Positions 8,001 to 41,440 of a stretch of 41,500 bases of DNA are shown here, piece after piece. This DNA comes from Candidatus Stahliibacteriota bacterium. Lineage in GTDB: Bacteria > Hydrothermota > Tepidihabitantia > SM23-42. Each line of letters begins with the position of its first letter. Position 1 is the stretch's first letter. The stretch spans positions 1 to 41,500 of the forward strand of contig JAUVZL010000019.1 in NCBI GenBank assembly GCA_030602565.1, read 5' to 3'. The notes beneath the pieces were generated by a model, which saw only the letters and a list, made by a program, of their open reading frames with translations, was not told where the DNA came from and searched no databases. Both the position numbers and the translations under genes were made by a program.

Positions 8001-8055
8001 GCCTTTGGCTGGAGCAAATAGAGAAATGGAGAATGGGAGAAACGGTGAAAGGGAG
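8001..8055. repeat. Dispersed repeat shared with the 40.9-kb hairpin array
   Basis: Bases 8009-8055 are identical to 40943-40989. The preceding GCCTTTGGCTGG matches a unit of the connector-hairpin array at 41089-41100, so this is an isolated piece of the same element. Confidence 0.85.
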
Positions 8056-18938: not shown

Positions 18939-19166
18939 CCCTTATGCCTGCCCCGCTTGTCCCGTAGTGACAAACAGCGGGGTAAAACGAAGTTGTACGG
19001 GGTCATTGCCCGACTTACCCTTATGCCTGCCCCGCTTGTCCCGTAGTGACAAACAGCGGGGTAAAACGAAGTTGTACGGGGTCATTGCCCACTCCCCTTA
19101 TGCCTGCCCCGCTTGTCCCGTAGTGACAAACAGCGGGGTAAAACGAAGTTGTACGGGGTCATTCCC
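18939..19166. repeat. Triplicated 77-79 bp tandem repeat
   Basis: Three head-to-tail copies start at 18939, 19018 and 19095, each beginning CCCTTATGCCTGCC. Each holds the hairpin CCCCGCTTGTC...GACAAACAGCGGGG and ends in GTACGGGGTCATT. A long open frame crosses the copies because the period is near a multiple of three, but it is only translated repeat. A truncated piece recurs at about 31777-31800. Confidence 0.88.
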
Positions 19167-35736: not shown

Positions 35737-36010
35737 GCTCAATGAATTGCCTGCCTGTGCCGGAACCACGGCAGACAGGAGCAACTACAAAGGGAGCGGT
35801 TCAATAAATTGAACAACTACAAGGGGAACACCGTCAATAAATTGCCTGCCTGTGCCGGAACCACGGCAGACAGGAGCAACTACAAAGGGAGCGACTCAAT
35901 AAATTGAGCAACTACAAGGGGAGTGTTCTCAATGAATTGCCTGCCTGTGCCGGAACCACGGCAGACAGGAACAACTACACAAGAGAAAAGAGCCAATAAA
36001 TTGGCAGACT
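35737..36010. repeat. Connector-hairpin array (CAACTACAA family)
   Basis: Head-to-tail small hairpins, each followed by the connector CAACTACAA(A/G)GG. Short units carry NNCAAT-aa-ATTGN'N' stems that co-vary: TTCAAT/ATTGAA (35800-35813), CTCAAT/ATTGAG (35895-35908), GCCAAT/ATTGGC (35991-36005). Long units contain an inserted CCTGCCTGTGCC...GGCAGACAGG hairpin and occur three times (about 35737, 35834, 35928). A further GTGCGGGG hairpin lies at about 36033-36058. Confidence 0.85.
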
Positions 36011-37330: not shown

Positions 37331-37543
37331 CTCCTCACCCTAACCCTCTCCTCAGAGAGGAGAGGGAACTATGATGGAGTAATCTCCTCAGAGAGGAGAG
37401 GGAACTATGATGGAGTAATCTCCTCAGAGAGGAGAGGGAACTATGATGGAGTAATCTCCTCAGAGAGGAGAGGGGATTTAAGTGAAGTGCTCTCCTCCAT
37501 TTCCTCTCCCTTTTCAAGGGAGAGGATGAAGGTGAGGGTTAAC
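37331..37543. repeat. CCTCACCC...GGTGAGGGTT palindrome, copy C (expanded)
   Basis: Begins CTCCTCACCCTAACCCTCTC and ends GAAGGTGAGGGTT. It is expanded by a 36-bp tandem unit, CTCCTC-aga-GAGGAG plus GGGAACTATGATGGAGTAAT, starting at 37348, 37384, 37420 and 37456. The last copy continues into the standard ggatttaagtgaagtg sequence. Confidence 0.87.
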
Positions 37544-37564
37544 GAAAGAAAGAAAGGAGACGGT

Positions 37565-38650
37565 ATGACCTTAATTTTACTAGCCGCGATTTTTGCCCTG
37601 GCACCGCCTGGTCAGGTACGCGCCTATGATACACCCAGTGACGGCGGTGAAGCGATAATCATTGAGTGGCAATTATCGCAAGATGATGCAGCTCTTACTG
37701 GCTATGAAATCTACCGCAGCGAAGACGGCGTAGATTTCCAAAAAGTTGGGTTTCTCGGTAGAGGTCGCACAAGTTATGAGGACGAAACAGAGGATGATAA
37801 AACATACTTTTACAAGGTTGCTGCAGTATCTGATACTGCAAGAACATTGTCCGAACCAACCCCGCAAGTAATGAGTAGTCCCCAATGGCTAAATCGTGAA
37901 AAAATCAATATTTTTATAGCAATGTTCCTTTTTGGTGGTCTTATTCTGTACTTTATTTATCATGCACGTAAAGGCAAAGAGCTCTTCATAAGAAAGATCG
38001 CAGGATTGCAAGCGGTTGATGACGCGGTTGGCCGCGCCACTGAAATGGGAAAACCGATACTCTATTCGCTCGGCCTCGGGTTTGTTGAAGACATTGCAAC
38101 CATCGCCTCACTAAACATCCTCAGCGAAGTTGCTAAAAAGTGTGCCAAGTATGACACACAGCTCATATGTCCAAATAACCGACCGATTGTCTATACTGTA
38201 GCAAGGGAAATTGTCAAAGAAGCATACACTGAAGTTGGCAGACCTGATGCATTTGACCCAGACAGTGTTTATTTTTTAACTGATTCGCAATTCGCCTATG
38301 CTGCCGGTGTTAGTGGAATCATGGTTAGAGAAAAACCAGCAACGAACTTTTTTATTGGTTATTTCTATGCAGAATCACTCATTCTCGCAGAAACCGGTGC
38401 TTCAACCGGTGCCATTCAAATCGCCGGCACTGATGCCCTTGCACAGTTACCGTTTTTCATTACTGCTTGTGACTATACACTCATCGGTGAAGAGCTGTAC
38501 GCTGCTTCAGCCTACATCTCAAGAGAACCGCTTCTTCTTGGTGCAATCAAAGGTGAAGATTGGGGGAAACTGATAATCGGCACAGTACTCATTGTTGCAT
38601 CGATATTAGGCCTTCTAACAAAATTTCCAATCCTTGGTTTGTTTAGATAG
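37565..38650 (+). CDS. Membrane protein: signal peptide, fibronectin type III, DUF6754-like domain
   Basis: 361 residues from ATG 37565, with AAAGGAG 10 bases upstream; a start further upstream would encode repeat sequence. Signal peptide about 1-20 (ending VRAYD), a fibronectin III domain (about 22-105: AIIIEWQLSQDD, GYEIYRSEDGVDF, YFYKVAAVSD), a membrane helix (about 115-135), then a large domain (about 140-330: AVGRATEMGKPILYSLGLG, LICPNNRPIVYTVAREIV, AAGVSGIMVREKPATNFFIG, AETGASTGAIQIAGTD) and a final helix. The large domain resembles DUF6754 from memory. First gene of a four-gene operon. Confidence 0.8.
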   Translation: MTLILLAAIFALAPPGQVRAYDTPSDGGEAIIIEWQLSQDDAALTGYEIYRSEDGVDFQKVGFLGRGRTSYEDETEDDKTYFYKVAAVSDTARTLSEPTPQVMSSPQWLNREKINIFIAMFLFGGLILYFIYHARKGKELFIRKIAGLQAVDDAVGRATEMGKPILYSLGLGFVEDIATIASLNILSEVAKKCAKYDTQLICPNNRPIVYTVAREIVKEAYTEVGRPDAFDPDSVYFLTDSQFAYAAGVSGIMVREKPATNFFIGYFYAESLILAETGASTGAIQIAGTDALAQLPFFITACDYTLIGEELYAASAYISREPLLLGAIKGEDWGKLIIGTVLIVASILGLLTKFPILGLFR

Positions 38651-38659
38651 GAGAATAAG

Positions 38660-39319
38660 ATGAAGAAGAAATTTCCTTTATTTCTTGTTTTCGCATTTGG
38701 CATTCTCGGTATCATCCCGTTTATTGTCCCTCACCCAATTGTGCAGAACATTGACGAATCAATACGTAATGACATTCTCAAAATCCTTGTGGCATTCGCC
38801 CTTGTTTTGGGACTCGGCAGTCTACTAAAAGTACACATGGACAAGATCAAACGCAAGCGAGAAAGTTGGCAGTACTCCTGGATTCTGATTATTTCGTTTC
38901 TTGTCAGTTCTATCATTGGTCTTTTTGGCGGCGTCGAAGGTGCTGGACCACTACGGACTTTTATCGGTTCATTTCACTTTGATATTCAAACCCTCTATGA
39001 AAATATCTTCATGCCGCTTGGTGCTACGATGTTTGCACTACTTGCATTCTATATGGCATCAGCATCATACCGTGCATTCCGCGCCCGTTCATTTGAAGCA
39101 ACTTTGCTCTTAATTACAGCATTCATCATAATGATAGGTATAATACCACTCGGCGAGAAGATCTCACCGCACTTACCTTCATTTGCTCAATGGATAATGA
39201 CGGTTCCGAATGTTGCGGGACAAAGGGGGATATTATTAGGTGTTGCCCTTGGAATAATTGCCACTTCACTCAAGATAATCTTAGGTATAGAACGCAACTG
39301 GCTTGGGGGTGGTGAATGA
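38660..39319 (+). CDS. Six-helix membrane protein of the DUF6754 operon
   Basis: 219 residues. AGGAG precedes ATG 38660, 9 bases after the previous stop. Six predicted membrane helices (about 5-25, 38-56, 72-93, 113-135, 150-168, 188-208) with a charged loop MDKIKRKRES between helices 2 and 3. No family recognised. ATGA overlap with the next gene. Presumably part of a complex with its neighbours. Confidence 0.72.
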   Translation: MKKKFPLFLVFAFGILGIIPFIVPHPIVQNIDESIRNDILKILVAFALVLGLGSLLKVHMDKIKRKRESWQYSWILIISFLVSSIIGLFGGVEGAGPLRTFIGSFHFDIQTLYENIFMPLGATMFALLAFYMASASYRAFRARSFEATLLLITAFIIMIGIIPLGEKISPHLPSFAQWIMTVPNVAGQRGILLGVALGIIATSLKIILGIERNWLGGGE

Positions 39320-40182
39320 AATTCATTGAAAGATTAACGACAATTGACCGACGTATTATTTACATCATTCTCGCAATTGTAGTCCTAATCCCTTTGATCT
39401 CCCGTTCTCCAGAAAGAGTTAGAGTAATGCTGCCGGTTGAGAAACTGTACAATGCAGTAGATACAATCCCTGAAGACAAGGTATTGATTATTGACTTTGG
39501 ATATGCTCCTCAAGACATGCCTGAGCTCGAACCAATGGGATTTGCGCTCCTGCGCCATGCCTTTGAAAAAAGAATAAAGGTCCTTGCTTTGTGTCTCTAT
39601 GTCCAACCCCTTGGTCTTGCACAAAAAGCCTTAACTGAGGTAACTGAAGAATTCAATTCTGTAGCGCAGACTAATGCTGATAGCATTATCTATGGAAGAG
39701 ACTATGTGTTTCTTGGTTGGCAGCCTCCGCCGCTCATTCCCATGCTCGGTATGGGGATCAGTATCACCAATGTCTATACAGCTGACTATTATGGCAATAA
39801 AACCGATACTCTACCATTAATGAGAGATGTAAAAAACTATAATGACGTCGCATTGCTTGTCTCACTGAGTGCTGGTTCTATCCCAAGACATTGGATTGCC
39901 TATGCGCAGAACAGATTCGGGGTAGCAGTGGCAGCTGGTGTTACTGCAGTCTCAGCTGCAGATTTTTACCAGTACTATCAGACCGGTCAGTTCACAGGAT
40001 TGATGGCTGGGATGAAAGGCGCAGCAGAATATGAAGAGCTGGTTGAAACCCGTTTGAATATTAAGGAAAGCAGAAAAGCAAGTGAGGCTTTACCTTCACT
40101 GACCTATGGGCATCTTGTCATGATCGCCTTCATTATTGTCGGTAATATCGGATATTTCATGCAAAGAAGGAGGCGAAAATGA
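39316..40182 (+). CDS. Bitopic protein with extracytoplasmic domain, DUF6754 operon
   Basis: 288 residues. An N-terminal helix (about 14-29) and a C-terminal helix (about 262-280) ending in the basic tail QRRRRK enclose an alpha/beta domain with alternating strands and helices (KVLIIDFGYAPQDM, RIKVLALCLYVQPLG, DYVFLGWQPPPLIPMLGMG, DVALLVSLSAGSIPRHW, AVAAGVTAVSAADFYQYY). No known family. ATGA overlaps on both sides imply strict coupling and fixed stoichiometry with its neighbours. Confidence 0.72.
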   Translation: MKFIERLTTIDRRIIYIILAIVVLIPLISRSPERVRVMLPVEKLYNAVDTIPEDKVLIIDFGYAPQDMPELEPMGFALLRHAFEKRIKVLALCLYVQPLGLAQKALTEVTEEFNSVAQTNADSIIYGRDYVFLGWQPPPLIPMLGMGISITNVYTADYYGNKTDTLPLMRDVKNYNDVALLVSLSAGSIPRHWIAYAQNRFGVAVAAGVTAVSAADFYQYYQTGQFTGLMAGMKGAAEYEELVETRLNIKESRKASEALPSLTYGHLVMIAFIIVGNIGYFMQRRRRK

Positions 40183-40820
40183 ATATCTCTTCTGACCCCT
40201 GGGTTTGGATTGCAGCTCTTTTAAGTCTTGCAATCTTTTCTTTCCTCTATAAAGAAAACCCGTTCTACAGGATTGCCGAACATCTGTTTATAGGTGTCGC
40301 GAACGGATATGCAGTAACATTCTACTACCATAATATCCTGGTGCCGACTCTCTTTGATCCCCTATTTCGACAGGGCAGGCTTTTGTACATTATCCCATTT
40401 ATTATTGGAATCCTGTATTTCACACGATTTATACCAAGAATCTCCTGGCTTGTGCGGATTCCAATCGGCATAACAATAGGATATTATGTAGGCGCGTCCA
40501 TACCAGCCACAACACAGGCATTTATTATAAAACAGATACAGGGAACGGTTTTGACCTCAACAAACTTCCAGGCATGGAATGCCGGCTCATGGGGAATCGT
40601 TTGGTCCGTAATAGTCTTCATAGGAGTATTTTGTTCCCTATCTTATTTCTACTTCTCAAAGGAACACAAGGGCGTATTAGGCGTGAGCTCTCGCATAGGA
40701 ATTCTATTTGTGATGATCGGGTTTGGTGCGGCATTTGGTTATACGGTCATGGCACGTATCAGCCTTTTGATTGGCAGACTACAGTTCTTATTAGGAGATT
40801 GGTTGGGGATAATACAGTAG
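40179..40820 (+). CDS. Multi-helix membrane protein, last gene of the DUF6754 operon
   Basis: 213 residues with about six hydrophobic helices (about 8-22, 32-50, 66-82, 88-106, 132-152, 163-205 in two parts). It contains LYKENPFYRIAEHLFIGVANGYAVTFYYHN, which looks conserved in character, and ends in FLLGDWLGIIQ. No family recognised. ATGA overlap with the previous gene. A repeat array starts 5 bases after the stop. Confidence 0.72.
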   Translation: MNISSDPWVWIAALLSLAIFSFLYKENPFYRIAEHLFIGVANGYAVTFYYHNILVPTLFDPLFRQGRLLYIIPFIIGILYFTRFIPRISWLVRIPIGITIGYYVGASIPATTQAFIIKQIQGTVLTSTNFQAWNAGSWGIVWSVIVFIGVFCSLSYFYFSKEHKGVLGVSSRIGILFVMIGFGAAFGYTVMARISLLIGRLQFLLGDWLGIIQ

Positions 40821-40824
40821 AGTA

Positions 40825-41150
40825 GACACGCTCTGCTGGAGACACATCCGCATGAAGCGGATTGAAGACATGTTTCACTGAAGACACGCCCGCCACGCAG
40901 CATGGCGGGCTGAAAACACGCTAACGCTGCAGACACGCTGCGCTGGAGCAAATAGAGAAATGGAGAATGGGAGAAACGGTGAAAGGGAGTATCGGCGACA
41001 AGAGGTATAGCTGCTTCGCAGCGGTAGAGAGCCCTACGCTGGAATCATGTTCGCATTCGCGAACTGAAGACACACTTCGTTGAAGACACGCCTTTGGCTG
41101 AAGACACATCCGCCACGCAGCATGGCGGACTGGAGAAGCGCTGCGCACGG
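40825..41150. repeat. Connector-hairpin array (GAAGACACR family)
   Basis: About eleven head-to-tail units of 16-32 bases, each opening with GACACG, GACACA or a close variant, carrying a different palindrome and closing with CTGAA or CTGGA. Palindromes include ATCCGC/GCGGAT (40846-40862), GCCCGCC/GGCGGGC (about 40888-40910), GCTGC-ttc-GCAGC (41010-41022), GTTCGC/GCGAAC (about 41049-41064), CTTC/GAAG, GCC-ttt-GGC and TCCGCC/GGCGGA (41109-41129). It is interrupted at 40948-40989 by the 47-base repeat also found at 8009-8055. Confidence 0.87.
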
Positions 41151-41323: not shown

Positions 41324-41440
41324 CAGGCTGTTGAAAAAGTCATTTTTCACTGGAGTAGAGCATTTATGCTCGTGAAAACTGATGAAATTTCATTGCTTTT
41401 GACGGGGCTAAAGCCCCTACTCCACTAAATCAACAGCCTG
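41324..41440. mobile_element. MITE-like element with CAGGCTGTTGA terminal inverted repeats
   Basis: 117 bp. Termini CAGGCTGTTGA (41324-41334) and TCAACAGCCTG (41430-41440) are perfect inverted repeats, flanked by AAT on both sides (possible 3-bp target duplication). Inside, GGAGTAG/CTACTCC, GAGCAT-tt-ATGCTC, ATGAAATTTCAT and GGGGCT-aa-AGCCCC make nested hairpins. No coding capacity. Confidence 0.8.

Follow-up and report, generated by a model that had tools for sequence, protein, structure and literature searches.

Arrays of short palindromes with variable arms on a constant linker in a family of Candidatus Stahlbacteria

Palindromic units behind the DUF6754 operon

The window, by which we mean the whole 41,500-nt stretch of DNA analysed here, belongs to a 2.74-Mb genome in 104 contigs from the WOR-3/Ca. 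Stahlbacteria group. It carries a DUF6754 operon (37487-40820) whose last gene, present as several paralogues per genome in the family, has its stop codon at 40818-40820. After a single base, and not five as given in a preliminary description, there follow ten palindromic units on a linker TGNAGACAY (40822-41130), the far end of the array being near the contig end. About eleven units in a single array had been proposed; ten could be confirmed, the eleventh is only possible (GCGCTGCGC, 41138-41146), and the units stand in two blocks (40822-40943 and 41040-41130) with about 100 bp of other repeat DNA between them. The features are as follows:

40179-40820, + strand: upstream gene, 213-aa membrane protein without a Pfam family of its own, last gene of the DUF6754 operon
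40822-40829, + strand: first linker GTAGACAC, one base past the upstream gene's stop codon
40830-40836, + strand: unit GCTCTGC, 2-bp arms, loop TCT
40837-40845, + strand: linker TGGAGACAC
40846-40862, + strand: unit ATCCGC-ATGAA-GCGGAT, 6 bp
40863-40871, + strand: linker TGAAGACAT
40872-40878, + strand: unit GT-TTC-AC
40879-40887, + strand: linker TGAAGACAC
40888-40910, + strand: unit GCCCGCCA-CGCAGCA-TGGCGGGC, 8 bp
40911-40919, + strand: linker TGAAAACAC
40920-40927, + strand: unit GC-TAAC-GC, complement loop GTTA
40928-40936, + strand: linker TGCAGACAC
40937-40943, + strand: unit GC-TGC-GC, complement loop GCA; closes the first block
40944-41039, + strand: interruption, a purine-rich period-8 repeat and a hairpin GCTGC-TTC-GCAGC (41010-41022)
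41040-41048, + strand: linker TGGAATCAT, opens the second block
41049-41064, + strand: unit GTTCGC-ATTC-GCGAAC, 6 bp; also in congener G003 at the same locus
41065-41073, + strand: linker TGAAGACAC
41074-41080, + strand: unit AC-TTC-GT
41081-41089, + strand: linker TGAAGACAC
41090-41098, + strand: unit GCC-TTT-GGC
41099-41107, + strand: linker TGAAGACAC
41108-41130, + strand: unit ATCCGCCA-CGCAGCA-TGGCGGAC, 7 bp, outer A.C mismatch
41138-41146, + strand: palindrome GCGCTGCGC after a degenerate linker TGGAGAA, possible last unit

Each of the ten units is preceded by a linker close to TGAAGACAC. The connector had been called constant, and the linkers are indeed similar, but the exact GAAGACAC occurs in only four of them and the remaining ones are off by one or two bases. 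Arms are matched from the first base in nine of the ten units, with stem lengths summing to 33, while shuffling letters within the units gave a mean of 0.8 such units and none of 100,000 shuffles reached the observed value; the comparison with shuffled sequence that had been suggested as a check thus went in favour of the arms. The TG after and the CA before each unit are able to extend the stem, with one bulged Y, and part of the linker may thus be paired; since these bases hardly vary, covariation cannot test the extension. As a whole, the window array folds modestly better than its shuffles on either strand (z of -2.4 and -1.8).

Several other repeats lie in the window. A 48-bp stretch of the period-8 repeat (40942-40989) is identical to window positions 8008-8055, and tandem repeats are found at 18939-19163 (79-bp units), 35738-35979 (95-bp units) and 37347-37474 (perfect 36-bp units). 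Beyond the array, an element at 41324-41440 has terminal inverted repeats CAGGCTGTTGA/TCAACAGCCTG that enclose two GTAG-tagged palindromes in opposite orientation (GTAGAGCATTTATGCTC on the + strand, GTAGGGGCTTTAGCCCC on the - strand), like a REP pair; copies of it also adjoin the L003 and L373 arrays. At the other end of the window, a tRNA gene (955-1067; 60 bits with Rfam, none called by ARAGORN) has its anticodon loop interrupted by 39 bases (about 991-1029), the uninterrupted loop probably reading as anticodon TCG (Arg). Uninterrupted copies of it are present in G003 and G001, while G021, G006, G020 and G017 have a comparable insert, its hairpin arms different, behind a 5' tRNA part with a differing 3' half. 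Such inserts may be attachment sites of integrated elements.

Recurrence, arm pairing and loop bases

A search for further arrays in the genome and its relatives had also been proposed, and it found them. CTGAAGACACR gave 24 matches in the window's own genome versus 2 for a reversed control. Across genomes, the linker-pair pattern GRAGACAYN{7,32}TGRAGACA matched 31, 36, 24 and 23 times in the four genomes of the window's genus (controls 0-1) and was also found in several other genera of the family. The earlier statement that structure is conserved while sequence varies holds and extends well beyond the window, to judge from pattern matches: 18 of the 23 family genomes have at least one, a few of these being chance matches inside genes. 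Some single matches in the poor genomes G005, G006 and G019 are likewise chance, since the surrounding sequence is without palindromes. In 42 genomes outside the family we saw 7 scattered matches, compared with 5 in controls, and detected no arrays. Exact matches in named genomes all fell in Candidatus Stahlbacteria or WOR-3 MAGs, and the plasmids and phages searched gave zero. Among viral contigs, the specific unit pattern matched one; a scan with a loose gapped pattern returned at least the matches listed, which were taken as chance. Within its partial coverage, our literature search found nothing on repeats in this phylum.

The arrays are intergenic, multi-copy and clustered. When linkers were strictly defined and the flanks left free, TGNAGACAY appeared both before and after each unit; its positions are the most constant letters of the arrays (information content up to 1.56 bits), and the spacing between linkers ranges from 16 to 32 bases. 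An ORF of at least 90 aa overlaps 19 of 70 arrays, overlaps that we judged spurious, and a coding repeat was rejected because the unit steps (16, 17, 18, 26 and 32) are not multiples of three throughout. By simple ORF calls, the left neighbour of the 70 arrays lies on the same strand in 37 cases and on the opposite strand in 28 (30 and 30 for the right neighbour), an about random orientation that disfavours a transcribed element of fixed strand; usually the gene to the left has its end or start near the array. Among single-contig genomes the picture is mixed. In G018, three arrays are on the + strand in the first half and four on the - strand in the second, which fits an orientation set by replication; nearby arrays lie in opposite orientation in G008 and G022, which would speak against insertion on the lagging strand only, as in IS608.

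Unit statistics were taken from the matches listed, which come chiefly from the window's genus. Among these, 157 units reduce to 80 distinct ones with lengths of 7, 8, 9, 13-18, 21 and 23; nearly all begin with a purine and end with a pyrimidine, and most of the distinct units are perfect palindromes with differing arms. For the 28 distinct 7-mers listed, 89% of cells are paired versus 63% after shuffling, and the covariation score of 0.845 (0.361 shuffled) was reached in 0 of 500 permutations, a count that is not a probability and overstates independence because the units share ancestry. Slid controls keep that relatedness and are therefore the safer comparison; they do not exceed 0.271. The 24 distinct 17-mers among the matches listed score 0.605 (0.319 shuffled, slid controls at most 0.219), and separate permutation within length classes agrees with both results. 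Single-arm intermediates exist as well, with GTTCGTC/GACAAAC found beside GTTCGTC/GACGAAC and GTTTGTC/GACAAAC.

The loops of short units follow a rule. Among the matches listed, position 1 of three-base loops is T in 25 of 26, position 2 can be any of the four bases and position 3 is C in 17 of 26, while the four-base loops read T..C in 4/4. Loops of TNC and TNNC on the linker strand mean GNA and GNNA loops on the complementary strand. The same hairpin rules apply to a second linker family, GGTWWTG: of its 27 distinct hairpins, 16 have T..C loops and none G..A, and 24 are closed by C..G. Mismatches point to the same strand, with 16 A.C versus 4 G.T on the linker strand (roughly 10:4 once obvious relatives are grouped); A.C there is G.T on the complement, which, with that caveat of relatedness, fits folding of the complement. 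The tetraloops d(cGNNAg) are unusually stable in DNA. The same is true of d(GNA) loops with a C-G closing pair (PMC5815330), and an extraordinarily stable DNA hairpin of only 2 bp has a Tm of 76.5 °C (PMC10527192). Going by their letters, most short units and most linker-2 hairpins are predicted to fall in this stability class on the complementary strand, where they have a GNA loop with C-G closing; AT-closed units fail, and the standard DNA energy model predicts no folding for the weakest units, two-bp AT-rich ones such as ATTTCAT.

Turnover of units at fixed sites

Comparison of orthologous sites shows units changing within stable surroundings. In G007 and G022 the flanks on both sides of an array are near-identical and the units differ; at locus C68, G000 and G001 both carry three units, all of them different, ahead of a 62-bp element that is near-identical. 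At locus C23, an orthologous unit adjoining a 29-bp palindromic insertion reads ATTTCAT in one and GTTTCAC in the other of G000 and G002, a compensatory change. In two neighbouring gaps at C48, the place of a linker-1 array in one congener is taken by a linker-2 array in another. Behind the window gene, the arrays of G000, G002, G003 and G016 differ, with some units in common; the G007 array was rejected as an orthologue of this locus, as it follows a 58%-identical paralogue.

The arrays of G007 and G004 contain tandemly repeated multi-unit blocks, and duplication is one route of array growth. The earlier suggestion of an element that grows by copying its hairpins survives in that limited sense. 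Amplification also took in units whose arms do not match (ACCTGCGGC in G007, AATGAGT in G004), which indicates that folding is not needed for tandem growth.

Two further elements accompany the arrays. One, of 62-64 bp, sits in array linkers (L358, L363, L369, L360 and others) at 2-7 copies per genome in five genomes; its copies are mostly 94-100% identical, even between two genera (G000-G003 and G016), and more distant versions (L368, L383) have different stems on the same bulged-hairpin plan. Folded as RNA or as DNA, the conserved 62-bp element did no better than shuffles, and the idea of such a fold was dropped. The other, CCCCGTACAACTTCGTTTAACGGGGCAGG, is palindromic, 29 bp long and found as an insertion within mini-hairpin units (L229 3560-4200, also L220, L225 and L227).

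Interpretation and comparison with known systems

We tentatively favour, at somewhat less than an even chance, the reading that the arrays consist of REP-like hairpin modules under structural constraint at the DNA level, shuffled by way of their linkers. The window array would then be one member of a family-specific intergenic repeat system, its module being the constant linker TGNAGACAY and a short palindrome that would be free in sequence and obliged to match its arms. The property conserved would be that the complement of the linker strand folds back into DNA mini-hairpins with GNA or GNNA loops. Modules may spread and be exchanged by duplication and by recombination at linkers, and copies that do not fold would be lost or not propagated, because some factor would recognise the hairpin by shape, as TnpA-REP does with REP hairpins. 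E. coli TnpA-REP tolerates a swapped upper stem and loop, which shows that the sequence of these parts can matter little for the recognition of such hairpins (PMC8266576). Y1 transposases occur throughout the family (0-13 copies), yet as a candidate for the factor they find little backing: the 37 loci covered (113 kb, part of the Y1 loci) hold 2 units, about background, the Y1 search had no match in G012, where arrays are present, and array and Y1 copy numbers correlate weakly (Spearman 0.41, p 0.05, phylogeny not corrected for). Linkage of the arrays to RAYT genes was not supported at the loci covered, the Y1 genes there not being near arrays.

A broader claim, which we consider rather unlikely as it stands, is that the arrays represent a class of DNA repeat whose heritable information lies in the fold instead of the sequence, made of shape-recognised single-strand mini-hairpin modules on constant linkers that are exchanged between arrays at fixed chromosomal sites by a hairpin-recognising machinery serving at least two linker families. 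The usual definition of a palindromic repeat in bacteria is by its sequence. Here, covariation between the copies in a genome shows the sequence changing and the pairing staying, and on one strand the loop rule is that of known stable DNA mini-hairpins. If confirmed, this would offer evidence from nature that selection acts on the structure of single-stranded DNA, and would explain the fast turnover of intergenic DNA in the lineage.

A mutational origin without function is an unlikely competitor: template switching at replication would correct quasi-palindromes, copying a mutation in one arm to the other, and repeats with palindromes could drift as perfect ones. The single-arm intermediate GTTCGTC/GACAAAC would agree with such a process, as would a hairpin density in intergenic DNA that is about twice that of coding DNA. 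Against this, the arms of most units are 2 bp long, shorter than template switching in its usual sense would need; mismatches are kept in all copies of the amplified blocks of G007 and G004; and the process does not predict fixed first and last loop bases around a free middle in both linker families. Alternatively, the linker could be the functional part, with a protein such as a nucleoid organiser or regulator binding GAAGACAC-like double-stranded sites and the palindromes serving as spacers or accessory cruciforms. The constancy of the linker letters and the placement of arrays between genes, close to gene ends and in either orientation, suit this idea, which we nevertheless regard as quite improbable, as it leaves unexplained the arm covariation, the loop rule and the return of the hairpin rule in a second, unrelated linker family, and has to accommodate the variable linker spacing.

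One guess of the preliminary description was a folded RNA, transcribed as the operon's 3'-UTR, and RNA hairpins acting in stability, processing or termination would agree with the start of the window array directly after the operon and with a left gene that is usually close; transcription is common in REPs, too, which are believed to function as RNA (PMC3733652). We now find this guess weakened and very unlikely: array strand is about random relative to genes, the loops and the rarity of G.T on the linker strand point to the complementary strand, and neither an Rfam match for the arrays nor a terminator-like site was found. That the arrays are ordinary decayed insertion-sequence or REP remnants in chance clusters, sharing no mechanism, is hardly credible, even though other palindromic repeats occur in the genome, a GTAG-tagged element of REP-like form among them, and its RAYT genes have flanking repeats of their own; the consistent register of linker and hairpin in several genera, the covariation and the loop rule speak against it, and the controls strongly disfavour it.

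Among known systems, CRISPR arrays likewise alternate constant and variable parts, but in the present arrays the linker is the constant part, the variable part is self-complementary and varies in length, and the spacing of 16-32 bases differs from near-constant spacers. Curated Rfam covariance models, the mark of a structured RNA, gave no match. Organelle palindromes (Volvox repeats, HyLIMP of Lobosphaera, sponge RHEs and the double-hairpin elements of Allomyces) are similar in sharing secondary structure with differing sequence, and HyLIMP stems vary with complementary changes (PMC4524435, PMC2670323); they belong to organelle genomes, are not joined into arrays by a constant linker and, in the literature consulted, carry no reported GNA/GNNA loop rule. 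The d(GCGAAGC)-type mini-hairpins are known as an in vitro motif, and our literature search found no natural arrays of them; the complement of unit GCTTCGC is exactly GCGAAGC, and other units keep the GNA loop.

The closest parallels are palindromic repeats of bacteria. GTAG-/CGTC-tagged families (Di Nocera 2013) also join a tag to a palindrome, and their sequence-type subfamilies differ in expansion from strain to strain and form tandem clusters (PMC3733652), but there the stem defines the family, whereas in the arrays stems are nearly free and the linker defines it. REP/BIME elements with TnpA-REP are, like the arrays, short intergenic palindromes in high copy number, clustered and thought to be handled as folded single-stranded DNA. 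The arrays differ in having no GTAG/CGTC tag at the stem foot (in the linker logo, ACAY stands between the unit and the nearest GRAG), in the absence of a conserved stem within a 20-40 bp palindrome (the matches listed comprise 80 distinct units of 7-23 bases), in units as small as 7 bases set in tandem in one orientation, and in standing away from transposase genes, which REPtron copies flank (2 units near the 37 Y1_Tnp loci, part of all). By this analogy, the array may work like a REP-type hairpin repeat, even though REP membership itself fails on tag, stem and RAYT proximity; if so, recognition of REP-like hairpins by shape would be testable with many natural variants.
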